Origin: Schoenoplectus triqueter
Taxonomy: Eukaryota; Streptophyta; Magnoliopsida; Poales; Cyperaceae
Assembly (NCBI GenBank): GCA_964058805.1
Contig: CAXKVV010000325.1
Span: 1-38,827, forward strand
Reading direction: 5' to 3'
DNA length: 38,827 bases
Every line of letters begins with the position of its first letter. Within the stretch, counting starts at the first letter, position 1. The notes below the pieces were generated by a model, which was not told the DNA's origin, made no database searches, and worked only from the letters and a program-made list of their open reading frames with translations. Of the stretch, positions 1 to 27,792 are shown in pieces. Both the position numbers and the translations under genes were made by a program.

Positions 1-351
1 CTACAAAATAAATAGAGTTTAGAAATAATAAAAATAAAATTCTACTATTTTAGCCATTATAAAAAATCCCAAAAATATTAATAGCTACCCCTTTTCCTGT
101 TTTTTGTAAATAATTTTCTACATAGACAAATAGGGTTTAAGAAATAAAAATAATAATAGTAATATAATAATTGTAATAATAATAATAATAATAATAGTAA
201 TAATAATGATAATAATAAATGCATCTTTATAATAATGGAAGATATTATAATAGACTTTGTGCATTTTAAGAAATGAATAAATATGCTCACATAAGGAGTG
301 TAGAGCCACATATGAATATTTGCACACATGACATGACATTTAAAGTAATTA

Positions 352-900
352 GTCAAGACAAGAACATCTTGACGTGGGATGATTAAGGCTTCAATAGCAA
401 TATGAGAAGATATGTCGAGACAAGAACATCTTGACACTTGATGAAGAACAACAAAATACGTCGAGACAGGAACATCTTGACGTGAGATGAATAAGGCTTT
501 GATAGCAGCATGAAGAAGTATGTTGAGACAGGAACATCTTGACACCTGATGAAGAATAACCAGAGCTACGACACTAACATGAAGATATACGTCGACTCTG
601 AAGAAGAAGAACATTACGATGTCCTAGAGAGGTGACATCTTAATGACTCGCTGCCATGAGCAAGTAACTCATGATTGAATACGCTCACACAAGGGGTGTA
701 GGGCTACATAGTAATTTTGCACAAGTAATGCAACACGTAGGATGATTAGTCGAGACAAGAACATCTTGACATTCGTTGAAGATTGACCAAAGCTACGACA
801 TCAGCATGGAGAGATATGTCGACTTTGAAGATGAAGAACATTACGATGTCCTAGCGAAGTGACATCTTAATGACTCGGTGTCATGAACAAGTAATTCATG
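352..900 (+). repeat. LTR stem-loop array 1 (GAACATCTTGAC repeats and related hairpins)
   Basis: Five copies of a stem-loop start at 352, 414, 460, 522 and 749. Each has a 7-nt left arm (GTCAAGA, GTCGAGA or GTTGAGA), an 8-nt loop CARGAACA and a right arm TCTTGAC; mismatches are G-T wobbles. Interspersed are GATGTC/GACATC hairpins (618-639, 845-866) and two hairpins with loop CAAGTAA, arms CATGAG/CTCATG (655-673) and CATGAA/TTCATG (882-900). The array lies in the presumed U3. Confidence 0.85.
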
Positions 901-975
901 ACCATTTGAGCTGGCAAGACTGAACTTGTCCGTCGATGAGTTTGTCTCCTGGCTCATTTCCCGAGAATGTGAGAT

Positions 976-1512
976 TGAATCGGTCTGTTGGTAGATTCAT
1001 CCACAAAACAGTGAATGTGAACCGTTCTGTAGGTAGGTTCCTTCACTAACACATGCCCCAATGTTGAACTGGCCCAGCGCTTCAGGTTTGACATTGTGTG
1101 CAATTGTGTTTCCTAGGTTTATGAATCGGCTTAGTGCTACGAATTCATGATCTAGAAGATCGGTGAGAAGAAATACGTGGGCCATAGCCACCCTTCTCCT
1201 GATTCACCAACCTCAAGATCAACCGGCTCAGTGCTTCGAGTTGTATTTTGTGTGATTGGTTGTTGACTAGTTAAGATTGAACCGGTCTGTTTGTAGGTTT
1301 ATCTTCTAGATCAACGGAGGTCGAGTCGGTCTGTATGTAGACTCACCTCAAGCCCCTATGAAGAGATTAACCTGGTCTGTTGGTAAGGTTACATCTCGAG
1401 GTGGCATGGACTGAACCGGTCTGTTTGTAGGTTCGTCCCCCATAGGATAAAACCGATCTGTTTGTAGGTTTTGTCTTCCCTAGATTGAACCGATCTGTTT
1501 GTAGGTTCATCT
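976..1512 (+). repeat. LTR stem-loop array 2 (constant loop, covarying arms)
   Basis: Eight units carry a 12-nt loop close to GGTCTGTTTGTA between complementary arms, with loops at 982, 1024, 1284, 1328, 1374, 1418, 1455 and 1492. Arms differ between units yet stay complementary: GAATC/GATTC, GAACC/GGTTC, GAGTC/GACTC, TAACCT/AGGTTA, AAAACC/GGTTTT. Several stems extend to 9-11 bp past a one-base bulge. Three further hairpins with a GCYYAGYGCTW loop (1063-1092, 1121-1148, 1220-1243) lie between them. The array ends just upstream of the TATA box. Confidence 0.88.
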
Positions 1513-1528
1513 TCCGTAGATCCCTTTT

Positions 1529-1534
1529 TATAAA
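1529..1534 (+). promoter_or_regulatory. Candidate LTR TATA box
   Basis: TATAAA after a T run, 293 bp before the LTR end. A start about 30 bp downstream would give R plus U5 of roughly 265 bp, a usual size. The same site is at 23628-23633 in the 3' LTR; in the older 5' LTR of element 2 it reads TGTAAA. An alternative promoter is the TATATAAA at 19696. Confidence 0.55.
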
Positions 1535-1831
1535 CCTAGACGACCACTTGACCATCTTTTAACCATACTATTTGCTTCTCTCTTTCAAAGATCCAGAGGT
1601 GCCTCGAGGTTCGTAGCCCAGGGTAATTAACGGTGGGGGCTTGCGCCCACCGGAATCTACAAGAACTCACAATCACTAAAAAACCCCCTGAATGTGCATC
1701 CAAATATCTCTAAACGGCAGAATCGGCCGACTCCCAGCAGATGCACGCTCGGGAGGGATCTCCGTGTCCTTCTTCCGCAACCCATCGCCCGGCGGCGGTG
1801 CGGAGCGCGCGAAAAAGGGTCGCACAGGATC

Positions 1832-1849
1832 TGGCACGCCCGGTGGGAC
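1832..1849 (+). other. Primer binding site of element 1
   Basis: It begins with TGG five bases after the LTR end and reads TGGCACGCCCGGTGGGAC, the form expected for pairing with the CCA 3' end of a tRNA. It is the same in element 2. I do not assign the tRNA species. Confidence 0.8.
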
Positions 1850-1940
1850 ATAGATTCTCCTCTTATCTCTGAAAGAGAGAGGCAAATAGAATAGTTAAGA
1901 GATACAAGTGGTCTCCTATGCGCTAAAAATGACTAATAAT

Positions 1941-1963
1941 TTTCAAGTGTTTTTGTTTTGCAG
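1941..1963 (+). promoter_or_regulatory. Candidate 3' splice site just before the gag start
   Basis: A T-rich tract ends in TTTTGCAG, three bases before the gag ATG. The same signal occurs in element 2 (AG at 24398-24399). If used, it would join a leader exon to gag and remove an upstream ATG at 1929, which in element 1 is out of frame with gag. The donor is unknown; GTATGT at 19975 and GTAGGT at 35621 (in the copies further along the elements) are candidates. Splicing is inferred. Confidence 0.45.
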
Positions 1964-1966
1964 GAA

Positions 1967-4900
1967 ATGGCATACTTTGGAAATTTCAACCTCGCTCCCT
2001 ACACCGTCACTCCTGCACAGAGCCCGGAGGGCAAGCTCTTCATGTTCTTCGGGACCATCCCGCAGGAACTCACCATCTACGGCCCAGCTCCAGTGGCCAC
2101 GATCACTCCCGCAACCGTCCGGATCTCCATCCCGGACGAGGAGGAGGACTCGATCACCCTGACTCCCAAGGGGATCTCAAATAACGTCATGGCCTCTCCT
2201 ACTACCTCCCCAAAGAGGAGAAGACGACCGTCTAAGAAGACAGCCCCAACGGCCGCAGCCCAAACTACCCGCAACTCTCAAGCGTCCAGGAAGAGGGCCC
2301 TGGATGCATACCAGAACCAGCTGGTGGCTAGGCCAGCCATCCCGGTCTCCAACAAATTTACGGCACTCCGTATAGTGGCTAAGAACTCGGCCACAGGCCA
2401 GCTCCGCCAGGCATGGGAGGTGCCTAAGCCCACACCTCGCCTAACTCAAAGGCCTCAGCGCCGCCAGGACAAGTCTCAAGCCCCTGCAGAAGCCATCTAC
2501 AAGGCTCACAGGGCCCTCAAACAGAGGAAGAGCGTCAAGAACGCTAGGTCGAGACAATACGTCTCCCGCTCCGGTCAATCTCAAGACATGGCTCGGCCGC
2601 AAGCCATTGTCTCAACTCCGCACCCGAGGAGGTTTACGCCAAAGGTAACACTTAGCACCCAGCAGGTGTGGGTCCCAAAGGGTTCCCAGCCAACAAGGTC
2701 CCAATCTCAAGCTCAGTCCAACAAGGCCGGCAGGTCCAACGCTCCGTCCGAGAGCGTATTCAACCGCTTAGGTCAAAAGAGTGTATTCAGCCGATTAGGC
2801 TCGAGAATACCACTCAATAGTCTAAAAATAACTGCCTCTGACCAAACAAAGAAGGAGAGAAGAACCGCTTGTTATGAAGAGCACTTCTCAGTCAACACCA
2901 TCAGCATAAGTTACGATACTGATCCGGACACTGATGCTGAGGTGAATATGACCCAGGATGACCAGTCTCCGCCTAATCAAGCTCACGTCACTAATACCAA
3001 TAAAAATAATGGTAGAAAAGGGAGACCACCCAAGAGAGTCAACCCCGAAGGCAACAGCAGGGAAGGGGAAGACCACAACGAAAACCCCGATCTCTTCGAT
3101 AATGAAGATGACGTTGAAGCACGTCCCGAAATGCCTATCGATGAAATTGAAATACTAAAAGGCCATATCGAGGCACGGGACGAAGAGCTGATTAGGCAAC
3201 GGGAGCTAATCGCTACCATGTTGAAACAAAATGAAGAACTAATTAAGGCGGTCAAGTCATTACAAGAATCACAAGACGCCAATTTTAAAGCTGGTAACTC
3301 CCGTCAAGAAGGGGTCCACAGTACCAAAAGCAATCATAAGGGAAAACAACCTGTCGATTCTAAACCCCATCCACATAGAACAATAGAAGTGGAGGCTGAA
3401 CCAACGGGAATATCCCGGAAAGAGATTCAAGCCATGATTGCCCAGCAAATGCAAATAGCTGGAGGTGGATACGCTATCCCTCCTGTAAAAAACTGTGGAC
3501 ATCCATACCCTGCCATATACGACTTGGAAGAATATCCTAAAGGGTATGTGATCCCCCGTTTCAGGACCTTCTCAGGGGAAGGCAATAAAGACCTGAACCC
3601 CGAACAACACCTGGCCCACTTTGTAGCCTCGTGCGGCAACACGGGTGGCAATGATGCACTGTTGTTAAGACAATTCCCTCAAAGCCTAGTGGGAACCGCT
3701 TTCCAATGGTACTATTCATTAGAAAACAACAGCATCAGGACCTGGGACGAGATGGCAGACTCGTTCAGGGCGCGATTTGTCATGGTGTCTGATAAGATAA
3801 ACATAGCCGATCTGGCAAGCACTAAACCCAAGAAAGGGGAGTCAATGACAGATTTTATCAATAGATGGCGGAACCTCAGCATCAAATGCGACCGCACATT
3901 AACCGAAGATGAGGCCGTCAACCTAATCATGAAGAACATTGACGGGTGGATGGGCATGCTTCTTGGTGTGACAAAGGTCAACACATTCAAAGACTTGCTC
4001 AGATCGGTATCCAATATGGAAAGGATGTCACCGCACACCGTGCCAAACTTTATGAATAATAGGCCGCAACGAGGGGCCCGAGCTGAAACCAAAGTGGCAT
4101 TCACCTCGCTAAAAGACAAGATGGTTGCCAACGCAGACACTCAAGGCGGCAGCAGTAGCACAAATGGCAACAATTACAACAAGGGACCCAGGCCCAATCC
4201 GGGAGGGAGTTCACGGAGTTTTGAGTCCCTCAGACAAAAGAAGACTAAACCGTACTCCTTCAGGAAAGATAAAGTTGCTCAAATCTTCAGGGGAGCACTA
4301 AAGAATGGCCTAACCCTGCCGGCCAGTAAACGCCCGGAAGATGCCGATAAATCGGACGAACCCAACTTTTGCCCATACCACAGAATAATAGGGCACTCAA
4401 TTGAAGATTGCTGGGTCTTCAAAGATTGGGTCGAAAAGGCATACAAAAACGGTGAAATTACTTTACCTAAAGGGTTCTTGCAAAGCCCATCAGCCCATGA
4501 GCAGGCCAATATGATCTCTCACGAAGAAGAGAAAGTCCCGGGCCAGTCATGCGAAGACCAGGAAGAACAATGGACTACGCACTTATCGAAGAAATCGATT
4601 AAAATGCTTAAAGCTCTTAAGAAAGAACCCGGCATGAAATGGAAAGACGACATCACGCCAGTGGTCCCACCAAAACCCAGGGTATATTATAAGGTGGACC
4701 AGAGCCAAGACCAGGTTCTTAAGAAGAAAAAGAAGCATAGAAGCAGTAAGTCCAAAAAGAACAAAATTGAAGAATACGAGCAGGGCAGTCCCGAGGCGAT
4801 TACCCTCCAACACTTCATCTCCAAAGAAGACTGGGAGAAACTAACCCTATGTCAAAAGGAAGAAAATATAAATGAAGAAATAAATAAAGAAGAAAGCGAA

Positions 4901-7900
4901 GAGATCTGGGGTGCTTCGTGCAATATGGTATATTCTTCTCACGACGAAGATATGCCAACATTAGAGGAGATGTTCTTCCCGAATGACGAAGGGGAAGCAA
5001 GCACCTCTGGGACCAAGAATGAAGAGTGCAAAGCCGTGCTCCGGTCCGGGACTTATATACCTGAGAGACAGGCTCCCAAGGATTCCGATAAAGGAAAGGA
5101 CAAGGTCCAGAATAAAGGCAAAGAGGTCGAGAATCCAAGCAAGAACCCAGAAAGAACCCGGTCGACGGGCGAAGAATATAATGTGTTGGCACATCTGCGT
5201 AAGATTCCAGCGCTATTAAGCATATTTGACGCGTTGATGATGTCACAAGACCTAAGGGAGGTACTAATTCAGGCCCTGCAAGATCCTGAGAAGTATAAGT
5301 CATATTTCATCGAGCAAAATATGCAAGAAGCCCTATTCACCGCCAAGCGGGCCGCCTGTATAAACTTCACAGACGATGACCTCCTAATAGGCACCGTCGA
5401 CCACAACCGCCCCCTATACATCACCGGAAACTGTGGAGGGCAGAAGATTGGCCGCATCTTGGTCGACGCAGGGTCTTCGATCAATATTATGCCACTTAAA
5501 ACTCTAAAGACCATCACCTTAGACGTAAAGAATCTATCTGATGAAAAGGTGATTATTCATGGCTTCAATCAAAACTCCCAAAAGGCCCTGGGAGCTATAA
5601 CTCTGAACCTGCAATGCGGAAGCCTAAGAGCGCCTACTAAATTCTATGTCATTGACGCTGAAACCTCTTATCGGGCGTTGCTGGGTCGCCCGTGGCTTCA
5701 TAGCAATCAGGTCATACCCTCTACTCTGCACCAATGCCTGAAATATATTGAGAATGGTAAGCAAAAGAGAATTGACGGAGATGTCAAGCCATTCGGGGTG
5801 CATGAGATTAAGTTCAATGACGCCCAATATTTTCTGCCTAAATCCGCTGTGGCGCCGAGCCGGCCTATAACAAAAGCAGGTCAGAAACCCTTCAATAAAG
5901 GCCCTAAATTTGATACCTCATCTGGAGAAGAAGAAGAGGTCAAATTTAATATCAAACCCCGAGGTGCTCGAGCCCAAAGACCCGGGAGAAAGTCGGGTGA
6001 AGAAGCAACCTTCCGCTTCAAACAGGTGGCTGCGTATAAGGCCCAAATAAAACCGAGCGAAATCAATACAAGTGATTCTGAAGAGGAGGTCATTTTCAAT
6101 TTTAAGCCTGCCAACACCCCTCAAATTCAGATCATAGAGGCAACTTCGGGAGAAGATTCCGAAGATTCCAACAATTCGGGCGATACCACCTCGGGAGAAG
6201 AATCTGGCCATGATCGTCAACCCTGGGAAGAGGAGTCTGACGAAGAGATCATCTATCACATCCTCAAGAAGCCATACAAAGGGCCTGAAACAGATAATGA
6301 AAGTGAGGAGTCATATATGATCAACACGGGACCCGGTAGCGGAAGGGATAACCCGGTTAGGCCAAGGCCTATAAATGAAGAACGCTCATGGCGGGAAAAT
6401 TTTGAGGGTCGCGTCTGGAATGCGATCGATGAAATAAGGCACCAAGTTGAAAATAACAGAAGAGAGGTGTCTGAACAATGGGAAGTGATGCAGGATATCA
6501 AGACGCAACACAATGAAATCATGATAATGATTGAAAACCTGCAAACCGCGATTTATAATTCCGAGCTGCTCAAAGAAATGACGAGCGAACCCCGTTCCGG
6601 GACCCCCGAAAGACAAACACCCGATAGCGGCAAACGGGTAATTGTCATAGTAGATGAATCGAAGGGGGAAGAAATAAAAGCTAAGCAACCGACCGTCATG
6701 CAAACCCTCAAGGTCAAGAAGAGTAAACCATACTCTTTTCTGAGAAATAAAACAGCTCGGATATTTGAGCAAGCCCTAAAGAGCGGATTGACACTTCCCG
6801 TCTGTAAAAGACCCGCTGACATAGAAAGAGCCGGTGAAGGCGAATTCTGCCCTTATCATCGCATATTGGGCCATACAATTGAAGAATGCTGGGTATTCAA
6901 AGACCTTATAGAAGAAGGGCATAAAAACGGGACGATCCAACTCCCGAAGAGCTTTCAACAAGACCCAGCTCCGCACAACTCGAATAACAAAGGTAAAGGG
7001 GTTGCTTATACGATCTCGCACACTCCCGTACCTAGTAAACCTAAGGCTGCGAGACGTAAGCCTATCAAAGAAATCTACCGCTCCAACTCGGTCATGAATA
7101 TTGAGATAGAAGAGGAGATGGCAGCGCTAGAGATTACTGTGGTTCCCGAAAGGCATTTCAAAGATCTCATACCAAGAGAGGTGAACCACATCCAAACCCT
7201 AAAGACCTTTGTTGTGCCGGCAAAGGTGGAACGCATCAAAGGGAAAACTATCATCCATAAGGCCATAATTTTCTATCAGAGCGATTCAACCCAGTCTCTG
7301 AAGAACCCTGATCACAATACTTGGAAGAAGTGGGTGATAGAACAAGAATTAGAGAATGCAACGAGCGATGACGCTGCATCTCATCCCTTTGGAAAGGAGC
7401 TGTACAAATTGGCAAAAAGGGCGAAATGTCTGAGGGACATATCCAAGGCCGAGGCCAAGCGCTTCGATGAACTCTGGAATGGCGGCCAGAATAAGGTCCT
7501 GGGCCTGGACGGTAAAATAAAATACACCCGGGGATTAGGGTATGACTGCGATGACGCAGCATGTTTTGAAGGGTCTCTCAACGAGTACCGTATAGAAGAA
7601 AGCTGTTGCATGACTTCTGTTGAAATGCCGGATAATAAAACAGAAGAGGACAATACCCCGGTCCTGAAAAATGCTTTGAAGCAGCTGGAAAAGGAACCTA
7701 ACACGGTCGATGAGTTAGCTGAAATCAATTTGGGGACGGAAGAAGACCCACGACCAACTTTCATAAGCGCGTCATTGCCGGAAGAGGTGGCTGACAAGTT
7801 GAAGACGTTCCTTAAAAACTATATGGACTGCTTCGCTTGGAGTTATAAAGAAATGCCTGGATTAGATCCCAACGTGGCGGTCCATTATTTGAAAATTGAT

Positions 7901-10900
7901 CCAACCTTCAAACCAATTAAACAAGCGCCGAGGCGAATGAGAATAGAACTCGAAGAGAAGGTCGTGGAGGAGACAAAGAAACTCATCGACGCCGGCTTTA
8001 TACGGGAAGAAGAGACGCCAGAATGGGTGGCTAGCATTGTCCCGGTTAAAAAGAAAAATGGGCAGATCCGTATTTGTGTGGACTTTCGGGACTTAAACAA
8101 GGCATGCCCTAAAGATGATTTCCCGCTCCCAGTAACCGAAATCATAATTGACCATACATCCTCCTATGAAGTCTTCTCCTTCATGGACGGTTATGCGGGC
8201 TATAATCAAATTAAGATGGCGCCAGAAGATGAGAGGCACACGGCATTCCGCACACCGATTGGCATATATTGTTACAAAGTCATGCCGTTTGGGCTCAAAA
8301 ATGCGGGAGCCACCTACCAACGGGCGATGACGAAGATATTTGACGATCTGATCCACAAAATAGTAGAATGCTATGTGGACGATCTAGTCATCAAAGCCAT
8401 GTCATATGAAGAACACCTCCAATACCTCGAGGTCGTTTTCAACCGCCTGAGAGAACATGCGCTCAAATTAAACCCGTTGAAATGCGCATTTATGGTATCA
8501 TCTGGTAAATTTCTGGGGTTTGTAGTACGCCACAGGGGCATTGAGATAGACCCGGGCAAGATCAAAGCAATCACTGAACTATCCCCGCCAAAGAATTTAA
8601 AACAGTTGCGATCTTTACAAGGGCAATTGGCGTACATCAGGCGGTTCATAGCCAATCTATCGGGTAAAATCCAACCCTTCACCCGGCTAACTAAAAAGAA
8701 TATCCCGTTTAAGTGGGATGGCGAGTGCCAGCGAGCCTTTGAAGAAATCAAGGCATATCTGCTCAACCCTCCAGTATTGGCAGCACCTATACCCGGGAAG
8801 GAACTTATTCTATACACGACCGCCCTGGATGGATCCTTGGGAGCTTTGTTGGCACAAGAAAACCAGGATGGTAATCAAAATGCGCTGTATTACCTAAGTC
8901 GCATGATGGTAGGGGCAGAACACGGGTATTCACCGATTGAGAAGCATTGCTTAGCCCTAATTTTCGCGGTGAAGAAATTGAGGCATTACATGCTAGCCCA
9001 CAAAATCATATTAATATCCAAGGTGGACCCTCTCAAATATCTGATGACTCGGCCAATGTTGACGGGGAGGCTGGCCAAGTGGGCTATCATCCTCACCGAA
9101 TTCGACATCACCTATACACCGCAAAAGGCGATAAAGGGGCAGGCGCTAGCAGATTTCCTGGCTGCACACCCGATCCAAGATGACTCCCCATTAAAATGTG
9201 ACTTTCCAGATGAGGAAACTCTACATGTTGAAGAAGGAAGTCCTATATGGGAGATGTACTTTGATGGTGCCTCGTCAATCAAGCCGATCGCGGGCCCGGG
9301 AGTCCCAACTGTGCGAGCTGGCGCAGGACTAGTCTTCGTAACCCCGGAAGGCGGGATAATACGACATTCTCTGGCTTTAACTGAACCATGTACAAATAAT
9401 GAAGCAGAGTATGAGGCACTCATCGCCGGATTAGAGCTGTCACTGGAGCTAAAGATCAAGGCTGTGCGCATCTTTGGGGATTCACAGCTGATAATAAATC
9501 AAATAATTGGCGAATACAAGGTCTTGAAGCCGGAACTAATACAATATCACCAAAAGGCCATAGGATTAATGAAGAAAATCCCGTACGTGTCCATCGAGAA
9601 GGTCACGAGGGCCGTGAACGGTGAAGCAGATGCGTTGGCCAAACTCGCCAAGGAGCTGGGTGAACCAACAGGGCCGGAAATCCACATCACCGTCCGCAAT
9701 AGGAGGCCATTATCATTGTGTCAAACAACAGATGAGGCGAATAATGAAAATGCTGGGCTAGAAAAGATAGAATGCCAAGAAACAATGATAACCGAAGAAG
9801 ACGATGATTGGAGACAACCGTTCATCGAATATTTCCGGCATGGCACCCTCCCCAAGGATAAAAGGATAGCTGATCAACTAAGAAAACGGGTACTACGGTA
9901 TGCATATGTGGGTAATACGCTATACCGTAGGTCTTATGATCAGTTGTGGCTGAGATGTGTATCAGGGCCTGAAGCCGGGCAAGTTATGAAAGAAGTTCAT
10001 TCTGGACTATGCGGAGCACATCAGTCTGGGCCAAAAATGAAGTTGAAGATCAAGCGAATGGGGTATTATTGGCCCACGATGGTGGCTGATTGTGAAGAGC
10101 ACGCGAAGAAGTGCCGCATGTGCCAAATACATGGCCCTTTTATACATCAAGCGCCAAACCCATTGCACCCCACGGTAGCATCCTGGCCATTTAATATGTG
10201 GGGCACAGATATAGTGGGGCCCATAGACCCTCCGACGTCGAGAGGTCACCGGTTCATCCTGGCGGCGACGGATTATTTTACAAAATGGGCTGAAGCCGTT
10301 CCACTTAAAGAAGTTAAAGCATCCGATGTGGTTAAGTTCTTCAAGACGCACATCCTCTACCGATTCGGTACCCCACAACGGATAATATCCGATAATGGAA
10401 CGGCCTTCAAGAGCTCTAAAGTCTACGCCCTGGCGGAGCAATTTAACATTGATTGGAGATTCTCGTCCATTTACAACCCGAGAGCCAACGGCCTGGCCGA
10501 AGCTTTTAACAAAACCCTAATCAATATCATGAAGAAGACCGTAGACGGTAACCAACGAGACTGGGATAATCGTCTACAGGAGGCATTATGGGCTTATCGA
10601 ACCACATACCGAACGCCTACGCAAGCTACCCCGTATTCTTTGGCTTTTGGAGTTGAAGCCGTTCTCCCTCTTGAGGTGGAATTACCGTCATTGCGGGTGG
10701 CTATGCAAAATGATATGACCATGGACGAATGCCAACAACTTAGACTGGACGAGTTGGATGCCATGGACGAGAAGAGACTGATAGCCCAGCAGAACCTTGA
10801 AATATATCAGGCAAAAATGGCAAGGGCATATGATAAGATGGCGCGAGTCAGGGCATTTCAACAAGGGGAGCTTGTTCTTGTCCTCAAGAGGCCGATCATT

Positions 10901-11056
10901 GGCCGGCACATCGGCCCAAAATTCTCTCCGAACTGGGAAGGGCCATACGTAATTGAGAAGGTATACGGGGGCGGCGCATACCAACTCATAGACCATGAAG
11001 GTGAAAGGCCCATGCCACCGATTAATGGACGATATCTGAAGAAGTACTACACCTAG
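1967..11056 (+). CDS. gag-pol: Gag-Pol polyprotein of element 1, intact (3029 aa)
   Basis: This is the complete replication polyprotein. The N-terminus (1-330) is basic, Pro/Gln/Ser-rich and probably disordered, with two SVFxRLG motifs. The Gag core lies near 525-680 and a C-x2-H-x4-H-x4-C knuckle at 802-815. The aspartic protease has active-site DAG at 1167 and a later LLGRPWLH motif. A second knuckle is at 1628-1641. Reverse transcriptase has YVDD at 2136-2139. A degenerate gypsy RNase H follows, then an archaeal-type RNase H (first Asp 2433). Integrase has zinc ligands H2678, H2685, C2716, C2719 and D2748, D2809, E2845 with exact D-x35-E spacing. The ATG at 1967 has a strong context (G at -3, G at +4) and is conserved in element 2; the open frame to 1958 rests on TTG only. 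There is no stop or intron between PR and RT, unlike classical Ogre. The frame looks functional. Confidence 0.95.
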   Translation: MAYFGNFNLAPYTVTPAQSPEGKLFMFFGTIPQELTIYGPAPVATITPATVRISIPDEEEDSITLTPKGISNNVMASPTTSPKRRRRPSKKTAPTAAAQTTRNSQASRKRALDAYQNQLVARPAIPVSNKFTALRIVAKNSATGQLRQAWEVPKPTPRLTQRPQRRQDKSQAPAEAIYKAHRALKQRKSVKNARSRQYVSRSGQSQDMARPQAIVSTPHPRRFTPKVTLSTQQVWVPKGSQPTRSQSQAQSNKAGRSNAPSESVFNRLGQKSVFSRLGSRIPLNSLKITASDQTKKERRTACYEEHFSVNTISISYDTDPDTDAEVNMTQDDQSPPNQAHVTNTNKNNGRKGRPPKRVNPEGNSREGEDHNENPDLFDNEDDVEARPEMPIDEIEILKGHIEARDEELIRQRELIATMLKQNEELIKAVKSLQESQDANFKAGNSRQEGVHSTKSNHKGKQPVDSKPHPHRTIEVEAEPTGISRKEIQAMIAQQMQIAGGGYAIPPVKNCGHPYPAIYDLEEYPKGYVIPRFRTFSGEGNKDLNPEQHLAHFVASCGNTGGNDALLLRQFPQSLVGTAFQWYYSLENNSIRTWDEMADSFRARFVMVSDKINIADLASTKPKKGESMTDFINRWRNLSIKCDRTLTEDEAVNLIMKNIDGWMGMLLGVTKVNTFKDLLRSVSNMERMSPHTVPNFMNNRPQRGARAETKVAFTSLKDKMVANADTQGGSSSTNGNNYNKGPRPNPGGSSRSFESLRQKKTKPYSFRKDKVAQIFRGALKNGLTLPASKRPEDADKSDEPNFCPYHRIIGHSIEDCWVFKDWVEKAYKNGEITLPKGFLQSPSAHEQANMISHEEEKVPGQSCEDQEEQWTTHLSKKSIKMLKALKKEPGMKWKDDITPVVPPKPRVYYKVDQSQDQVLKKKKKHRSSKSKKNKIEEYEQGSPEAITLQHFISKEDWEKLTLCQKEENINEEINKEESEEIWGASCNMVYSSHDEDMPTLEEMFFPNDEGEASTSGTKNEECKAVLRSGTYIPERQAPKDSDKGKDKVQNKGKEVENPSKNPERTRSTGEEYNVLAHLRKIPALLSIFDALMMSQDLREVLIQALQDPEKYKSYFIEQNMQEALFTAKRAACINFTDDDLLIGTVDHNRPLYITGNCGGQKIGRILVDAGSSINIMPLKTLKTITLDVKNLSDEKVIIHGFNQNSQKALGAITLNLQCGSLRAPTKFYVIDAETSYRALLGRPWLHSNQVIPSTLHQCLKYIENGKQKRIDGDVKPFGVHEIKFNDAQYFLPKSAVAPSRPITKAGQKPFNKGPKFDTSSGEEEEVKFNIKPRGARAQRPGRKSGEEATFRFKQVAAYKAQIKPSEINTSDSEEEVIFNFKPANTPQIQIIEATSGEDSEDSNNSGDTTSGEESGHDRQPWEEESDEEIIYHILKKPYKGPETDNESEESYMINTGPGSGRDNPVRPRPINEERSWRENFEGRVWNAIDEIRHQVENNRREVSEQWEVMQDIKTQHNEIMIMIENLQTAIYNSELLKEMTSEPRSGTPERQTPDSGKRVIVIVDESKGEEIKAKQPTVMQTLKVKKSKPYSFLRNKTARIFEQALKSGLTLPVCKRPADIERAGEGEFCPYHRILGHTIEECWVFKDLIEEGHKNGTIQLPKSFQQDPAPHNSNNKGKGVAYTISHTPVPSKPKAARRKPIKEIYRSNSVMNIEIEEEMAALEITVVPERHFKDLIPREVNHIQTLKTFVVPAKVERIKGKTIIHKAIIFYQSDSTQSLKNPDHNTWKKWVIEQELENATSDDAASHPFGKELYKLAKRAKCLRDISKAEAKRFDELWNGGQNKVLGLDGKIKYTRGLGYDCDDAACFEGSLNEYRIEESCCMTSVEMPDNKTEEDNTPVLKNALKQLEKEPNTVDELAEINLGTEEDPRPTFISASLPEEVADKLKTFLKNYMDCFAWSYKEMPGLDPNVAVHYLKIDPTFKPIKQAPRRMRIELEEKVVEETKKLIDAGFIREEETPEWVASIVPVKKKNGQIRICVDFRDLNKACPKDDFPLPVTEIIIDHTSSYEVFSFMDGYAGYNQIKMAPEDERHTAFRTPIGIYCYKVMPFGLKNAGATYQRAMTKIFDDLIHKIVECYVDDLVIKAMSYEEHLQYLEVVFNRLREHALKLNPLKCAFMVSSGKFLGFVVRHRGIEIDPGKIKAITELSPPKNLKQLRSLQGQLAYIRRFIANLSGKIQPFTRLTKKNIPFKWDGECQRAFEEIKAYLLNPPVLAAPIPGKELILYTTALDGSLGALLAQENQDGNQNALYYLSRMMVGAEHGYSPIEKHCLALIFAVKKLRHYMLAHKIILISKVDPLKYLMTRPMLTGRLAKWAIILTEFDITYTPQKAIKGQALADFLAAHPIQDDSPLKCDFPDEETLHVEEGSPIWEMYFDGASSIKPIAGPGVPTVRAGAGLVFVTPEGGIIRHSLALTEPCTNNEAEYEALIAGLELSLELKIKAVRIFGDSQLIINQIIGEYKVLKPELIQYHQKAIGLMKKIPYVSIEKVTRAVNGEADALAKLAKELGEPTGPEIHITVRNRRPLSLCQTTDEANNENAGLEKIECQETMITEEDDDWRQPFIEYFRHGTLPKDKRIADQLRKRVLRYAYVGNTLYRRSYDQLWLRCVSGPEAGQVMKEVHSGLCGAHQSGPKMKLKIKRMGYYWPTMVADCEEHAKKCRMCQIHGPFIHQAPNPLHPTVASWPFNMWGTDIVGPIDPPTSRGHRFILAATDYFTKWAEAVPLKEVKASDVVKFFKTHILYRFGTPQRIISDNGTAFKSSKVYALAEQFNIDWRFSSIYNPRANGLAEAFNKTLINIMKKTVDGNQRDWDNRLQEALWAYRTTYRTPTQATPYSLAFGVEAVLPLEVELPSLRVAMQNDMTMDECQQLRLDELDAMDEKRLIAQQNLEIYQAKMARAYDKMARVRAFQQGELVLVLKRPIIGRHIGPKFSPNWEGPYVIEKVYGGGAYQLIDHEGERPMPPINGRYLKKYYT
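4240..4475 (+). repeat. Zinc-knuckle module, copy 1 (end of Gag)
   Basis: The encoded block runs from a KPYSF motif through GLTLP, a C-x2-H-x4-H-x4-C knuckle (4370-4411), WVFKDW and ITLPKGF. A second copy of the same block lies after the protease (6716-6957). It resembles a nucleocapsid zinc knuckle with His in place of the second Cys. Confidence 0.85.
6716..6957 (+). repeat. Zinc-knuckle module, copy 2 (between PR and RT)
   Basis: The same motif order as copy 1 (KPYSF, GLTLP, CPYH...GH...C, WVFKD, QLPKSF) with many substitutions, so the duplication is old. It sits between protease and reverse transcriptase, preceded by an acidic segment with repeated SGEEE/VxFNxKP units (about 5920-6110). 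All metal ligands are kept. Confidence 0.85.
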
Positions 11057-11730
11057 CCCAGAGAGGGGCCCAACCGAGTAGTATCTATTGTAAATAAATA
11101 AGGAGGGAATAAGTGTTCGCTTACACACACGTGCACGAAACACAAACCCATGTCTAACCTCCACTTTTGCATAAAAATCCCAAAAACCCTACTTGTGCAT
11201 CTGTAAATAGAATGCATCTAAAAATCCAAAACCACACAAATACATTTAGCCCTATAACAAAATAAAAAATAGAATAAGGGAATACAACGCCAAAACCACG
11301 CGAGAATGTAAGGCGAGAGCTTTGGTGTTTGGGCTCACAATACAAATACCACTGGGTTTGTCCATTTGATACAGAATAAACACAAAAATGGGCAGGGTTT
11401 GCAGTTTGTCCCTCAAACTATCTGTTGCCCAATGACGAAAGTTGCTCATATTGGTCGCCCGCGGCGCGAGCCAAGGGATAGGTCGAGCAAATTGGTGGCT
11501 AGTAAATAGTCGCTTCTGAGGGCATATAAATAAATAACTCTCGTACTATTAGTAACATGTATCACTAATAACAAAAATCTGCTCTCTCCTAATAAAATAA
11601 AAGGATATATATGTAAAACAATAAAAACCTATTTTCCTACTCATAAAAAATGATGATAATTAAAAAATAATAAAACCTTTTTCAATAAGGGGTTGCCACC
11701 TTTGTCCCCGACACCATGAGTGTTATACAA
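11057..11730 (+). other. Non-coding segment after pol
   Basis: No coding frame is evident. It is AT-rich and closely matched by the region after 27111 in element 2. AATAAA-like motifs and a purine stretch (AAGGAGGGAATAAG, near 11100) follow the stop codon. Confidence 0.6.
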
Positions 11731-12441
11731 AGCCAGGTTGGGTGCATTCATCCGTAAAAGCACCACACGCCCGAAGAAATGGTGTGTCATAATCCCACGA
11801 CATATCATGGAGGGGTCAGATCAAGGGTTTACGCTTGTACCCGACATTTCATGTTAAACAAAGCGGCTCGCTTAAAGAAGTGACTTAGGTCATGGAGAGC
11901 GGACCTACCCGATGAAAGCCTGTCTCGCAGGGATGCGTGATGGATGTTTGAGGGTAGCTAAAATATAAAAAACCAGGTTGGGTACATTCACCCGCAAAAG
12001 TACCACACGCCCGAAGAAATGGTGTGTCATAATCCCACGACATATCATGGAGGGGTCAGATCAAGGGTTTACGCTTGTACCCGACATTTCATGTTAAACA
12101 AAGCGGCTCGCTTAAAGAAGTGACTCAGGTCATGGAGAGCGGACCTACCCGATGAAAGCCTGTCTCGCAGGGATGCGTGATGGATGTTTGAGGGTAGCTA
12201 AAATATAAAAAACCAGGTTGGGTACATTTACCCGCAAAAGTACCACACGCCCAAGGAGGTGATCTGTTTCTAATCCCAAAATAGATCATGGAGGGGTCAG
12301 ATTAAGGGTTTATGCTTTTGCCCGACATTCAGTGTCAAATAAAGTAATTCGCTTAAAGAAGTGACTCAGGTCATGGAGAGCGGACTTACCCGATGAAAGC
12401 CTGTCTCGCAGGGATGCGTGATGGATGTTTGAGGGTAGTAC
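11731..12441 (+). repeat. 240-bp tandem repeats, three units
   Basis: Units start at 11731, 11971 and 12211, exactly 240 bp apart, each opening with a CCAGGTTGGG motif and closing with GATGTTTGAGGGTAG. Units 1 and 2 are nearly identical; unit 3 has a diverged middle. Element 2 has only two units, the second like unit 3 here. Variable tandem repeats downstream of pol are known from Tat/Ogre elements and can seed satellites. Confidence 0.93.
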
Positions 12442-13022: not shown

Positions 13023-16000
13023 CTATGGGCCCAAAAAGCGGGACTCCAACTCTAATAGCACAGTACTAATAGTCTCTAAATGAGTATGGAGGGAGTGCCT
13101 ATCCTCCTCCGAAGCTGCCTCGAAGTCCAAGAACTGAGTAAAGACACTATCCCGGACGCTCGTGTGAATCTGCAGCTCTGGGAGACGTCCCGCTAGATGT
13201 CGGGAGAAGCCCTCCACCGACAATCTGTGGTCCTCTAGCTCCTGCACGAGCAGTCGAGCGGGCCCACCACTGACTCCCATGGAGCGGAGAGTGGCACAAG
13301 AAGAGAGCCGCTGAAGGTAGTGGAGTCGAGCGGCCTCCAAATGCCTGCGTAGCTCATGAATCTCCAACTCGTGCTGATAAACGAGAGAGCTCGCATCCTG
13401 GTAAGCCCTAAGCAGCTCCTCACACCTCCTAGAAATGAAAGTGCTCTCGAGATGAGGTGCAATGAGTAGAGCTGGCGCGATGGTATCCCGCATCAGCCCA
13501 TACCAGTCAAAAGAGAAACCACTGGGCAGAGAGTCCAAGATCTCGAAATCTAGTGGATAGCCCCCGAAGAAGGTATCCCGGAGTGCATCCGCCAGCGCGG
13601 CCAAGGCGAGCTGCACATCCCTCGATGAAACATCTGCAAGTAAAATAAATGGGTTAGACAAATTGTTATAACCTAAGAAGAAATAAAAGGAAGAAAAGAT
13701 CTAACCTATCGCCTCATCGCCTGAGACAGGCGGGACTGAGTCAGGGATAGGGATGTCGGTCGCCTCAGGAGGACCCATAGGTGCACTAGACCCGGCTACA
13801 AAATAAAATGAAGAAGTATAAGTACATGAAAAGTAAAATACGGGTAAATGATAAAGGAAATATAAAGTACCGGAAGAAGCATGAGGCTCGGCGAGACCCT
13901 CGCTAACCGGAACCTCTGTCTCTGGGCTGTGGAATAGCTGCTCCACCAGCCAACTCTCATCCAACTCTGAGTCATAATCGACTGCAACCCGCTCAGTCGA
14001 GACTCTGCTATCTGTGGCCATGAGAGGCTGCCCGTCGGGAGATGAAGAAGCATGAGATGGCCCTCCCTCAATCAATAATGGCTCGTCGCCTGCGGGCACG
14101 ACAGCCAATGGACTCCCCTGCTCTAAAGAAGTCTCCTCTGGTCGTGCAAGAGTGAGCACTGGCCCCAAAACCACATCGAACGAGTCACCATCCCCGGTAG
14201 GCACCAATAAAATCGACGGTGAAGCAGGACCGTCATGAAAGAAAGGCTCCGAGCGGTGTGGAGATGCCATGTCATCGGCCTCAGGGTCTGTAAAATATAC
14301 ATGTAAGAATGAAAATACTAGTGCATGCTGGCAACTAGGTATTAAATGAAGCACACGAACCTGCGACGGCAAGGTCGGTGCAAAACCCTGGAATAGCAGT
14401 GCTCGCAGGCGCCGATAAATCTGCTATAATATCGTCTCGGGTAGCCTCCACAGGAGATGTCCCATGAGCTGAAAAATAAACCCTAAATCAGAGATGTAAA
14501 TGAAGTGCACCCGAATAAGGATAGGCGAGTCAGTAAAGAAAATCACCCGGAGTGGGAGAAGGAAAAGAAGATGGAGAAGATGGCTGAGAGGCGCCGTCTC
14601 GATCTCTCCCCGTGGTAGTTGGAGCCGGTGGCTCGACGTGTGGCTGAGAATGAACGTCAACTACTCGTGGACGAGGGACCGAGAACCCGGGCTCCGCGTG
14701 ATCATACTCATAAGCCAGCTCTGAATCAAAGAAGAATTGGTCGAAATGAGATGAGGCTTATCGAAAAGAAATAACCTAAAGGGATGATGAAGCATACCTG
14801 TGAGAATGGTCCTAACAGGAGCATGAGAAAACCGGCTATCTAAACCCTGAAAGTCGACAGGCTCTGCGGCAATGGCCGGGAAAGGGCTGCGATCACGCGA
14901 AACGGTGCCATCTAATAAAGGCTGGCCATCTCGCGGACATGTACTCCGGACGACCACCGGAGGGGTATATGACTGATAAGAGCGAATGGTCTCATAATAC
15001 CACTGCTGATAACGCCTCGTGAAGGTGGAAGTCCTAGAGGTGGATACCATCTGATAGCGAGTGCCTGTGCCTAGTCGGAAGAGGTGAGTGTAGCACCATC
15101 CGATACCCTCCAAATCAGTCGCCAATGATATAGGGCGGAGAAGAAGCGCTGGAATATCCTGATCCAAGCCGAACTGATGTGCACATCTATGAGGCGAATA
15201 GGGCTCGATGAACATATAATCGCCCAATCTGAGAGGAAGAAAGCCCTGACGAATACTGATCAGGTACTCCAAATCAATAGGCCTAGCTCGAATGCTAGAA
15301 GAGTCAGAAGAGGGAACTCTGCTGTCAATCACCATCCTGTCAGCAACCCTAGATGTCCCACGGGCCACTGATCTGTCTCGGGAGAAGCGTAGATGGTCTC
15401 GACTCCTGAAGAATCTATACCGGGCAGCCTCCGGAGTCAATGAAGCTGGCTGCACCCCAGCCAAGTCACTCAATAAGGGTAGACGATCTCGTAGCGTGAC
15501 CGCCATGCCGGGATCATATGAGCCAGACCAATGCAAATGGAGCCATCCGCTAATCAGATGCCACGGGATCAGCTCCTGGCACTGTGAAGGACTACGAGAT
15601 GAAGTCAGACCGCGGAGGCACCTATAAATGTTGGCCAGTACAGGGACGGCCAAAGAAATCCTGTCGCCACGCGCGATCAGGCTCGCCATAACGAACACCG
15701 AGGGCCGAATGGTGTATGCGGGGGAGCTAGGTAATAAGAAATAGCAGATCCACCAAGAAATGAAAGCTGTCAAATAAGTCTCCCGATCCACGTCATGTGA
15801 ACACAGGGTATCCTGAGATGGGATAGGGCCGTCGTGATGAATCTCGAGCCGACCTGTACCAAATGGATCTCTGGTGGAAGCCAAACCCGTAGGGCGAGTA
15901 TGGACCCGATCGGTGAAATAGGCGATCCAATGTCTGAACGGAACTCCGGGGTGCCCTCTCCGTAGATAATGGTAAATCTCATAAATCCTATGCAAAGAAG

Positions 16001-16424
16001 GCGGGAATCGAGTGAAGTCCCCCGAGTCAGCGGGCGAGACCATGAACTCGTCATAGAAATGACCGAAGATCGGCAGCCCGGTCAACTGCTGTATCTCTAG
16101 GAGGGTCGGAGTCAGCTCCCGATCGTCGATGAATAGAGTGTTGGTGGAATAGTTCCACCGCTCACAAAAGGCCCGTAGCCAGGGTGTGTCGATATGATAA
16201 TGAAACATCGACAAGAAAACCGAGTCATATATCCCGGCTCGCCTGAGCAGAGTCCCCTCCCGCATAAGCACATACCGGGTCCACTCTAGCTGATATCCAT
16301 AGCACTCCAAGGGAGTGACGAAGGGAGCAGTAGTCCACCTGTGAGCCTCCCCATCGATAATCTCCTTGCCCAGGAGATGTGTCAAAGGAGCTGTGGAAGC
16401 AACGCCTAAGGGCTGAAGGGGCAT
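13023..16424 (-). CDS. Antisense plant mobile domain (PMD, aminotransferase-like) gene, six exons
   Basis: Exons on the minus strand: 16424-14798, 14720-14547, 14468-14361, 14287-13871, 13795-13706, 13633-13023. All five introns are GT-AG, 72-78 nt long and in phase 1. The spliced frame from the ATG at 16422-16424 gives about 1008 aa; the frame stays open upstream to about 16703 without another ATG, so the 5' end is uncertain and a first exon may be missing. Exon 1 encodes the PMD core: an FCERWNYSTNT block, an ELTPTL motif, LTGLPIFG and a later ISWWICYFLLPS helix. Exons 2-5 are Pro/Ser-rich and acidic linkers; exon 6 is likely coiled coil. PMD proteins occur in plant transposons and in host MAIN/MAIL proteins linked to silencing and genome stability; the role here is unknown. 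Exon lengths in element 2 are identical, which supports coding. Confidence 0.88.
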
Positions 16425-16767
16425 GATGTCATGAGGCTGATCATCCCTGAAAAATAAACCGCCGCCTCGCGGGTAGACAGGAGTCGCTCGGATGGCTGAG
16501 ATGAGAGGAGTCCAATCGCTAGGATCCTCGTAGAAAGAATGATAATGACTCAAGGGGCGACGCGGAATAGCGTCATGAGATAAAACTACAATACCCGAAG
16601 AAGAGAAGACGTCATGAGAAATGAAATGATGAATAATAAGGAATAATGCACCAAGACAAGCCTTTCGAGCGTTCAAGGCTCGTCTTGGTGGGTGGCTCTT
16701 TGTTTACCCTTGAAAAGTTTCAAGGATGAATGGATGAATAAATGAAATAAATTGATGATAAAATCAT

Positions 16768-22099: not shown

Positions 22100-23925
22100 C
22101 TACAAAATAAATAGAGTTTAGAAATAATAAAAATAAAATTCTACTATTTTAGCCATTATAAAAAATCCCAAAAATATTAATAGCTACCCCTTTTCCTGTT
22201 TTTTGTAAATAATTTTCTACATAGACAAATAGGGTTTAAGAAATAAAAATAATAATAGTAATATAATAATTGTAATAATAATAATAATAATAATAGTAAT
22301 AATAATGATAATAATAAATGCATCTTTATAATAATGGAAGATATTATAATAGACTTTGTGCATTTTAAGAAATGAATAAATATGCTCACATAAGGAGTGT
22401 AGAGCCACATATGAATATTTGCACACATGACATGACATTTAAAGTAATTAGTCAAGACAAGAACATCTTGACGTGGGATGATTAAGGCTTCAATAGCAAT
22501 ATGAGAAGATATGTCGAGACAAGAACATCTTGACACTTGATGAAGAACAACAAAATACGTCGAGACAGGAACATCTTGACGTGAGATGAATAAGGCTTTG
22601 ATAGCAGCATGAAGAAGTATGTTGAGACAGGAACATCTTGACACCTGATGAAGAATAACCAGAGCTACGACACTAACATGAAGATATACGTCGACTCTGA
22701 AGAAGAAGAACATTACGATGTCCTAGAGAGGTGACATCTTAATGACTCGCTGCCATGAGCAAGTAACTCATGATTGAATACGCTCACACAAGGGGTGTAG
22801 GGCTACATAGTAATTTTGCACAAGTAATGCAACACGTAGGATGATTAGTCGAGACAAGAACATCTTGACATTCGTTGAAGATTGACCAAAGCTACGACAT
22901 CAGCATGGAGAGATATGTCGACTTTGAAGATGAAGAACATTACGATGTCCTAGCGAAGTGACATCTTAATGACTCGGTGTCATGAACAAGTAATTCATGA
23001 CCATTTGAGCTGGCAAGACTGAACTTGTCCGTCGATGAGTTTGTCTCCTGGCTCATTTCCCGAGAATGTGAGATTGAATCGGTCTGTTGGTAGATTCATC
23101 CACAAAACAGTGAATGTGAACCGTTCTGTAGGTAGGTTCCTTCACTAACACATGCCCCAATGTTGAACTGGCCCAGCGCTTCAGGTTTGACATTGTGTGC
23201 AATTGTGTTTCCTAGGTTTATGAATCGGCTTAGTGCTACGAATTCATGATCTAGAAGATCGGTGAGAAGAAATACGTGGGCCATAGCCACCCTTCTCCTG
23301 ATTCACCAACCTCAAGATCAACCGGCTCAGTGCTTCGAGTTGTATTTTGTGTGATTGGTTGTTGACTAGTTAAGATTGAACCGGTCTGTTTGTAGGTTTA
23401 TCTTCTAGATCAACGGAGGTCGAGTCGGTCTGTATGTAGACTCACCTCAAGCCCCTATGAAGAGATTAACCTGGTCTGTTGGTAAGGTTACATCTCGAGG
23501 TGGCATGGACTGAACCGGTCTGTTTGTAGGTTCGTCCCCCATAGGATAAAACCGATCTGTTTGTAGGTTTTGTCTTCCCTAGATTGAACCGATCTGTTTG
23601 TAGGTTCATCTTCCGTAGATCCCTTTTTATAAACCTAGACGACCACTTGACCATCTTTTAACCATACTATTTGCTTCTCTCTTTCAAAGATCCAGAGGTG
23701 CCTCGAGGTTCGTAGCCCAGGGTAATTAACGGTGGGGGCTTGCGCCCACCGGAATCTACAAGAACTCACAATCACTAAAAAACCCCCTGAATGTGCATCC
23801 AAATATCTCTAAACGGCAGAATCGGCCGACTCCCAGCAGATGCACGCTCGGGAGGGATCTCCGTGTCCTTCTTCCGCAACCCATCGCCCGGCGGCGGTGC
23901 GGAGCGCGCGAAAAAGGGTCGCACA
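22100..23925 (+). repeat. 3' LTR of element 1 (part matched to the 5' LTR)
   Basis: Matches 1-1826 with no difference seen, including all stem-loops of arrays 1 and 2 (22451-22999 and 23075-23611) and the TATA box (23628-23633). It ends in GCACA at 23925 and passes directly into older LTR sequence of element 2. The true LTR start lies further upstream. Confidence 0.92.
23628..23633 (+). promoter_or_regulatory. Candidate TATA box of the 3' LTR
   Basis: Identical to the TATAAA at 1529-1534. If active, it could drive read-through into element 2. Confidence 0.5.
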
Positions 23926-24262
23926 GATCTGTTTGTAGGTTCATCTTCCGTAGATCCCTCTTTGTAAACTTAGACGACCACTTGACCATCTTTTAACTAT
24001 ACTATTTGCTTCTCTCTTTCAAAGATCCAGAGGTGCCTCGAGGTTCGTAGCCCAGGGTAATTAACGGTGGGGGCTTGCGCCCACCGGAATCTACAAGAAC
24101 TCACAATCACTAAAAACCCCCTGAATGTGCATCCAAATATCCCTAAACGGCAGAATCGGCCGACACCCAGCGGATGCACGCTCGGGAGGGATCTCCGTGT
24201 CCTTCTTCCGCAGAACCCATCGCCCGGCGGCGGTGCGGCGGCGCGCGAAAAAGGGTCGCACA
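23926..24262 (+). repeat. 3' end of the 5' LTR of element 2
   Basis: Corresponds to about 1493-1826 of the element 1 LTR, starting inside the loop of the last array-2 hairpin, with scattered substitutions and a 2-nt insertion. The TATA position reads TGTAAA (23963-23968). It ends in CA at 24262, five bases before the primer binding site. The missing 5' part is expected upstream of the window if element 1 is nested here. Confidence 0.88.
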
Positions 24263-27111: not shown

Positions 27112-27792
27112 CCCGGAGCGGGGCCAATCGAGTAGTATCTATTGTAAATAAATAAGGAGGGAATAAGTGTTCGTTTACACACACGTGCACGAAACACAAA
27201 CCCATGTCTAACCTCCACTTTTGCATAAAAATCCAAAAACCCTACTTGTGCATCTGTAAATAGAATGCATCCAAAAATCCAAAACCACACAAACACATTT
27301 AGCCCTATAACAAAATAAAAAATAGAATAAGGGAATACAACGCCAAAACCACGCGAGAATGTAAGGCGAGAGCTTTGGTGTTTGGGCTCACAATACAAAT
27401 ACCACTGGGTTTGTCCATTTGATACAGAATAAACACAAAAATGGGCAGGGTTTGCAGTTTGTCCCTCAAACTATCTGTTGCCCAATGACGAAAGTTGCTC
27501 ATATTGGTCGCCCGCGGCGCAAGTCAAGGGATAGGTCGAGCAAATTGGTGGCTAGTAAATAGTCGCTTCTGAGGGCATGTAAATAAATAACTCTCGTATT
27601 ATTAGTAACAAGTATCACTAATAACAAAAATTTGCTCTCTTCTAATAAAATAAAAGGATATATATGTAAAACAATAAAAACCTATTTTCCTACTCAAAAA
27701 AAAAAAAAAAAATGATGATAATAATAAAAATAATAAAATCTTTTCAATAAGGGGTTGCCACCTTTGTCCCCGACACCATGAGTGTTATACAA
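27112..27792 (+). other. Non-coding segment after the chimeric frame
   Basis: Closely similar to 11057-11730; no gene. It differs by an A run near 27697-27711 and small indels. Confidence 0.55.

Follow-up and report, generated by a model that had tools for sequence, protein, structure and literature searches.

The NC of MoMuLV, which has one zinc knuckle, binds UCUG, as described in the available part of the source (PMC7599994). For the yeast element Ty3, UTRs or POL sequences are reported to be needed for localisation and packaging of the RNA, and the RNA packaging signals of yeast Ty1 and Ty3 are called not precisely defined in those portions of the text that were accessible (PMC4974528, PMC11381356). 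For the RNA of plant LTR retrotransposons, no paper found in our literature search places the signals by which it is selected for particles. Here we describe an LTR retrotransposon of Schoenoplectus triqueter whose LTR carries an array of short hairpins with near-constant loops and differing, complementary arms. Such an array is apparently undescribed: Rfam gave no match above the gathering score for window positions 1–2000, its three weak matches each falling below that score, and the literature searched, mostly outside subscription papers, held no description of constant-loop hairpin arrays in LTRs.

The window, meaning the whole stretch of DNA analysed, is a 38.8-kb contig from an assembly of 82 Mb, and holds LTR retrotransposon sequence arranged in tandem. 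The LTR sequence at position 1 is repeated identically at 22100 (22099 bp apart), and near the end of the contig lies a related third LTR, 88% identical over 38277–38576, which is cut off before its array. A sense ORF (1958–11056) has gag, reverse transcriptase, RNase H, second RNase H (RVT_3) and integrase domains, with the Pfam order Retrotrans_gag, RVT_1, RT_RNaseH_2, rve when pieces of the ORF were scanned apart. Having gag, reverse transcriptase, RNase H, an integrase placed after the reverse transcriptase and flanking LTRs, the element is a Ty3/gypsy LTR retrotransposon. The RVT_3 match (PF13456, E 1.7e-17) lies directly before the integrase domains, which is the Tat-type arrangement if a second RNase H of this kind between reverse transcriptase and integrase is, as we take it to be, the mark of the Tat lineage. 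A CX2HX4HX4C motif occurs twice in the one sense ORF, at 4370 and 6848, more than 800 residues apart.

Three antisense ORFs (13023–13661, 13701–14372 and 14661–16676) lie between pol and the 3′ LTR, a Retand-like feature. The last of them matches the Pfam domain PMD (plant mobile domain), and the best of its protein's relatives from named organisms is in the sedge Carex littledalei, at 39% identity, closer ones, at up to 95%, coming from JGI sources. The two minus-strand ORFs beside it, in 13023–14372, have no Pfam match at E 0.01, and similar ORFs are found in the second element; a Pfam scan of all three antisense ORFs gave no TRP28 (PF04195) at E 0.01. Internal repeats in tandem, about 240 bp in period, lie between pol and the antisense ORFs, at 11645–12438 and 27707–28259. 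In the second element most of pol is missing, and the ORF passes from gag directly into integrase at a junction near 26356. That such pol-deleted copies form a mobilised non-autonomous family is unsupported, since the junction was spanned in one of 40 scored genome matches and that match is the window itself. An R/U5 hairpin at 1631–1652 (CGGTGGG..CCCACCG) is conserved, appearing as CGATGG..CCATCG in one diverged LTR (L073) and in a G-U form in another (L075), and having one pair broken in a third (L072).

The first-pass annotation had placed eight constant-loop hairpins at 976–1512, just upstream of an LTR TATA box, and all eight were found there, with 12-nt loops and complementary arms (Table 1). 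Their loops start at 982, 1024, 1284, 1328, 1374, 1418, 1455 and 1492, span 982–1503 and differ from GGTCTGTTTGTA at 0 to 3 positions. The arms of units 1 to 4 are TGAATC/GATTCA, GAACC/GGTTC, GAACC/GGTTT (with one G-U) and GAGTC/GACTC, and those of units 5 to 8 are TAACCT/AGGTTA, GAACC/GGTTC, AAAACC/GGTTTT and GAACC/GGTTC. A covariance-model search lists six of the eight, the remaining two overlapping listed neighbours. The location thus stands, but the row is not a regular one: two units are followed by a 260-bp gap, filled by other predicted hairpins, and then by six more. The TATA-like TTTTTATAAA at about 1521–1530 is not conserved among 13 aligned LTRs, differing in L034, L074, L078 and L079 and having nothing alike in L072 and L085, so that a position just upstream of a TATA box holds for some copies only; across the 13 LTRs the hairpins lie 5′ of a common conserved block. 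A 335-bp tandem duplication at 23588–24121 joins the LTR end (..GTCGCACA) to the loop in the middle of the last type-A hairpin; the joint falls at the shared letters GATCTG, and the copy therefore begins within the hairpin loop.

Table 1. Positions in the window of the hairpins and other features discussed in the text
Feature	Position	Strand	Basis
Eight type-A hairpins, loop GRUCUGUNNGUA or near	976..1512	+	sequence and arm-swap test
Second copy of the type-A array, in the next LTR, 100% identical	23075..23611	+	sequence comparison
Type-C hairpin with a long outer stem and loop UGUCCGUCGAUG, distantly matching the type-A plan	907..956	+	fold; sequence
Type-B hairpin 1 (loop core GGCYYAGYGC)	1061..1095	+	fold; alignment; co-change test
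Type-B hairpin 2	1113..1154	+	fold; alignment; co-change test
Long hairpin M, flanked by type-B hairpins 2 and 3	1158..1204	+	fold; two compensatory changes between LTR families
Type-B hairpin 3	1215..1249	+	fold; alignment; co-change test
Type-D hairpin 1 (GTCRAGA-CARGAACA-TCTTGAC)	352..373	+	sequence; G-U/A-C count
Type-D hairpin 2	414..435	+	sequence; G-U/A-C count
Type-D hairpin 3	460..481	+	sequence; G-U/A-C count
Type-D hairpin 4	522..543	+	sequence; G-U/A-C count
Type-D hairpin 5	749..770	+	sequence; G-U/A-C count
Type-E hairpin 1, loop CAAGTAA, arms CATGAG/CTCATG	655..673	+	sequence; genome pattern search
Type-E hairpin 2, loop CAAGTAA, arms TTGCA/TGCAA	717..733	+	sequence
Type-E hairpin 3, loop CAAGTAA, arms GTCATGAA/TTCATGAC	880..902	+	sequence; genome pattern search
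Type-F hairpin 1, arms GATGTC/GACATC	618..639	+	sequence
Type-F hairpin 2, arms GATGTC/GACATC	845..866	+	sequence
LTR 3′ end (..TCGCACA)	1820..1826	+	shared sequence stops there in the 13-locus alignment
Candidate loop reader: knuckle-like motif CX2HX4HX4C in the sense ORF's gag part	4370..4411	+	sequence; role putative

The arms are complementary beyond chance. In the window, the inner arms of each unit pair with their own partners at 5.75 of 6 positions compared to 4.70 of 6 when arms are swapped between units (p ~0.001). The same comparison in 24 arrays, which include many relatives, was significant at p < 0.01 for the inner arms in 16 and at p < 0.05 for the outer arms in 8. The remaining 8 of the 24 showed no inner-arm advantage at the p < 0.01 level, and in L074, L076 and L099 swapping the inner arms hardly alters their pairing. 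Over 230 units, inner positions were paired in 89.9% of cases with own and 78.6% with swapped arms, and outer positions in 68.7% and 59.5%. The signal is real but modest owing to the fact that most stems share one basic sequence, so that it comes from the units departing from it. Stems had also been thought to continue past a one-base bulge, and over the family this is the common form: the register with a one-base 5′ bulge is the best, ties included, in 203 of 253 units (out of 302, those having 5 or 6 of the six inner positions paired), the remainder being 34 with no bulge and 16 with a 3′ bulge, and in the 230 units it pairs 68.7% of outer positions compared to 47.1% and 49.1% in the other registers. 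The window's own outer arms, however, pair no better than swapped ones (p 0.29).

The type-A hairpins are accompanied by several other classes. The segment 901–1515 of U3 is predicted to be in near-continuous pairing, and the stretch 300–899, taken as a control within U3, also folds better than shuffles (z −3.3), a result that led to inspection of this stretch and so to the type-D, type-E and type-F hairpins. Type-F arms hardly vary and therefore show no covariation. The type-E loop CAAGTAA occurs three times in the LTR, each time with different complementary arms (of 6, 5 and 8 bp). Outside the LTRs, the sense strand has it four times up to near the window end, two of these being copies of one place, and all four have arms of 0 bp. 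The type-E pattern CATGARCAAGTAAYTCATG has 885 matches in the genome and none when reversed. Among the roughly 100 matches listed, all have G with C or A with T, though the pattern permits mixed forms, and a single old duplication may be the origin of this split.

The type-A loop is widespread in the host genome. The pattern GRTCTGTNNGTA has 2849 matches in the 82 Mb compared to 213 for the reversed control, and the longer GGTCTGTNNGTAGNTTCATC has 361 compared to 0. Six diverged LTRs (L072, L073, L075, L076, L085 and L086) each have 7–16 matches to the loop on very different arms, with a few of the matches out of register. An LTR of the main family (L088) has 10, and the other regions among the 20 examined have 1 to 6, most of the stretches covering only part of an LTR; in three of the 20 (L087, L089 and L090) the matches look like chance. 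A covariance model built from 26 units was searched over 26 sources. Among its best 300 matches, L097 has at least 17 hairpins at E <= 0.01 and L095 at least 19 when weaker ones are included, and the only places in the window that appear there are both LTR arrays and a duplicated piece of LTR at 23910.

We compared window positions 963–1445 with their counterparts in an orthologous alignment of 23 sequences, from which two partial ones were dropped before the tree was built, leaving 21. At 112 stem pairs, a list partly chosen from the fold and from inspecting the alignment, both partners changed on the same branch 24 times compared to 8.5 ± 2.6 expected, a number reached by none of 2000 draws, and slid partners gave 7–11 such co-changes. 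The mean over 30 reconstructions was 23.3 double changes, 19.1 of them ending as a standard pair. With type-A stems set by rule, inner positions co-changed 7.1 times compared to 2.8 (P 0.0035; 0 to 4.6 with slid partners) and outer positions 7.0 times compared to 1.2 (0 of 2000 draws; 1 to 5.6 with slid partners), with the caveat that some slid registers stay high: outer partners at +1 to +3 give 3.5–5.6 co-changes and inner partners at +1 give 4.6. For instance, GAGGT/ACCTC in the window is AAGAT/ATCTT at the matching hairpin of L073, and TAACCT/AGGTTA is TGATCT/AGATCA in L085.

Two further alignments had rows chosen or fitted for pairing. The first (A1) holds 26 units picked from 45 diverse ones, drawn from the 253 of 302 units that have 5 or more of the six inner pairs, so its percentage of pairing leans upward; the second (A2) holds the best 150 of 300 listed matches (135 distinct) fitted to the model, and likewise leans to pairing. 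With rows so obtained, the covariation score exceeded all 500 shuffles and the slid controls. In the model-aligned units 91.8% of stem cells were paired compared to 28–44% with the partner slid by one to three columns, and all ten stem pairs vary on both sides. An all-pairs covariation scan against a tree-based null of 100 alignments, which has low power with 21 related sequences, found no stem pair at E < 0.05 (best E 3.7). A family-wide covariation check had been proposed for the idea that the secondary structure is maintained, and it comes out divided: the stem-targeted tests, that is the co-changes and the covariation score, support the idea, as does the excess of G-U over A-C described below, but the all-pairs test does not. 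The hairpins as sequence, the conservation of their loops and the compensatory changes in their stems are supported directly by these alignments, and with good confidence we judge the secondary structure of the array likely to be conserved.

Coordinated changes could also arise without any function. If a palindromic unit were duplicated in tandem and polymerase template switching then repaired the resulting quasi-palindromes, repair of one arm from the other would yield coordinated changes with no selection, and the units do seem to be related by duplication, spacings of 44–51 bp being frequent in the diverged LTRs. Such repair would be expected to erase a bulge, yet the one-base 5′ bulge recurs across most units and families. 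The loops are near-constant between arms that differ, and tend to change jointly across units, and the preference for G-U over A-C likewise speaks against a purely mutational origin. Template switching had been named from the start as the non-selective alternative; given the recurrent bulge and the concerted loops on differing arms, we think it unlikely.

The loops themselves show a further order. The first three bases of each loop have potential pairing partners in its final three (G-A, A/G-U and U-G). In the model-fitted alignment the second and third of these pairs are kept in 98% of cells, with changes that are one-sided only, the third pair passing from U-G to U-A in 13 cases, to C-G in 3 and to another form in 2. 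Pairing of this kind would expose a six-base apex, C-U-G-U-N-N. UCUG is present in all eight type-A loops and nowhere else in 901–1515, though the motif is not universal, as diverged loops also carry UAUG and UCUA. Four of the five top scores in the all-pairs scan join equivalent loop positions of different hairpins. One such pair, columns 418-462, has E < 0.01, with no null score as high in the 100 null alignments, and the others (411-455 at E 0.26, 70-462 at E 0.33 and 70-418 at E 0.55) are not significant. A loop variant of 11 nt (GNTCTGTAGTA or near, ending TAGTA) takes the place of the 12-nt loop in several units at once in L074, L078, L079, L082, L091 and L075. The loops of different units thus seem to change jointly while the arms stay different, which suggests a common reader. 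Self-complementarity of the loop GATC as a kissing-dimer signal is not favoured, since GG, GT and GA are all found at loop positions 1–2.

What might read the loops is a separate matter. The first-pass annotation had listed RNA packaging, dimerisation, stability and 3′-end formation as possible roles. Plant far upstream elements include UUUGUA/UGUA-like motifs, and the loops could be far-upstream polyadenylation elements, with the hairpins shortening the distance to the poly(A) site and only the 3′ LTR being cleaved. UGUA is present in six of the eight window loops, and U3 would be found only at the 3′ end of the RNA. The remaining two loops are without UGUA, however, as are the TTGGTA or TTAGTA loops that are common in the family. 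In addition, up to 17 hairpins far exceed the usual length of such elements, and simple UGUA elements would have no need of kept stems, so we regard a device for 3′-end formation as improbable. A different possibility is a defence against silencing, in which dense stems too short for Dicer would make the 3′ end of the RNA a poor target for small-RNA cleavage. This would agree with the almost full pairing predicted for 901–1515 and with uninterrupted inner stems of no more than 13 bp among the listed units, but it leaves the constant loops and their joint change unexplained, and it seems to us very improbable indeed.

G-U pairs fit RNA of one strand, the opposite strand showing A-C in their place. 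The six inner positions of 302 loop-selected type-A units, a few of which are out of register, hold 115 G-U compared to 54 A-C, and a hand count of the five innermost positions in arm pairs seen in at least two loci (four out-of-register pairs excluded) gives 9 compared to 3, all such counts being inflated by shared ancestry. When single changes are placed on the tree, stems gain 70.6 G-U and 55 A-C, compared to 119.6 and 141.5 for matching directions in unpaired columns. The resulting odds ratio of about 1.5 is just below usual significance, and the choice of some stems from folds in which G-U was allowed leans in the same direction. On internal branches the gains are 18.6 G-U and 11.0 A-C, compared to 46.4 and 46.1 in unpaired columns, too few to separate alone. 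Among 65 distinct type-D units, positions 4–7 hold 67 G-U compared to 5 A-C; the innermost positions were fixed by the selection of units, so only position 4 outward counts. Position 5 has C-G in 44, T-G in 16, T-A in 4, A-G in 1 and C-A in none, as if it had changed, apparently, via the wobble. At position 4, where column frequencies predict about 1.3 A-C among the 65 units, chance would account for finding none, and position 8 has 9 G-U and 7 A-C. Overall, the sense strand has a modest excess of G-U over A-C in the type-A array and a strong one in the upstream type-D class.

Folding speaks less clearly about the strand. Folded one by one, 69.5% of the 302 type-A units have their better fold on the sense strand. 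The whole window array, compared to 24 shuffles for each fold, has z −4.5 on the sense and −3.4 on the antisense strand, but in five of six diverged arrays the stronger z is on the antisense strand, and their sense values (−1.4 to −3.5) overlap those of controls (−1.9, −1.9 and −3.3). We therefore rejected whole-array fold energy as evidence for the sense strand, as it does not separate the two. This lack of a sense-strand preference would suit an element that acts as DNA, in which the hairpins would be palindromes bound by a transcription factor or by a DNA-binding protein that the element encodes, or would form cruciforms upstream of the promoter; the array lies directly upstream of the conserved LTR core, and type-D and type-F arms taken alone resemble ordinary palindromic sites. 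A reader of duplex sequence, however, would not require type-A arms to change letters and yet stay complementary, nor would it account for G-U being preferred over A-C on one strand, and the constant part in types A and E is the loop rather than the arms. Action as DNA is thus unlikely in our view, and sense-strand RNA is, at moderate confidence, the likely active form.

The explanation that we prefer, tentatively and at somewhat less than even confidence, is that the U3 hairpin chain could be a sense-RNA platform for Gag with a role in packaging or assembly. U3 would be a chain of short hairpins active as sense-strand RNA, each presenting a conserved loop on an exchangeable stem. From its position 5′ of the conserved LTR core, the array would be missing at the start of the genomic transcript and would occur in it once, in the 3′ LTR, near the 3′ end. 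In type A, the 12-nt loop would add two pairs (A/G2-U11 and U3-G10, or variants) under a G-A closure and so show the C-U-G-U-N-N apex, with the one-base bulge beneath an upper stem of 5–6 bp. Many such loops in a row could make a multivalent landing platform for a loop-reading protein, most likely the element's own Gag, and the job might be selective packaging or particle assembly. We infer Gag as the reader, and with it a packaging function, from the probable 3′-end placing, the many similar loops, the confinement of UCUG to the loops in 901–1515 and the analogies with MoMuLV and Ty3. Retroviral packaging signals lie in the 5′ leader and not in U3, where the array would fall if transcription starts at or below the conserved core, and this difference counts against the packaging reading. 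Other loop classes carry other motifs, so that a single UCUG reader would leave part of U3 unexplained.

A wider and more doubtful possibility is that the U3 of a large plant retrotransposon lineage serves as an RNA display of several constant-loop classes, in which the loops would track a trans-acting reader while the stems drift. If this is true, the code for packaging or assembly of an LTR retroelement would be located in U3 and composed of many equal sites. The strongly patterned loop motif makes the selection of RNA for particles directly testable, and searching for constant loops on changing stems would be a route to such signals in other elements.

Among related elements, Retand shares a long region between pol and the 3′ LTR with antisense ORFs and tandem repeats, as described in the accessible text of PMC11963269. 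The tandem repeats there are internal, that text contains neither "hairpin" nor "secondary structure" and has "palindrom" twice, and it reports antisense TRP28 in 97% of clusters, compared to none in the three antisense ORFs here. Ty3 is of the same Ty3/gypsy type and needs cis sequences of both RNA ends; the available portions of PMC4974528 and PMC11381356 describe no constant-loop hairpin array, which is the feature of the present element. With the packaging signal of MoMuLV, in the part of PMC7599994 at hand, the array shares UCUG lying outside stems and a zinc-knuckle reader, established there and proposed here. The MoMuLV site, however, is a linker in the 5′ leader, where dimerisation exposes more sites, whereas here the sites are apical loops in U3 and the candidate motif is CX2HX4HX4C. 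A similar picture emerges for the packaging signals of ssRNA viruses and hepatitis B virus (PMC6281560, PMC7612645, as far as their accessible text goes), which like the array consist of many stem-loops with a common loop motif. Those signals are dispersed over the genome and have reported coat or core contacts, whereas the hairpins described here are clustered in U3 and have a putative reader. With the hairpins clustered and their binding hypothetical, we do not claim membership of that group, but in its working the array would resemble the multiple packaging signals of RNA viruses.
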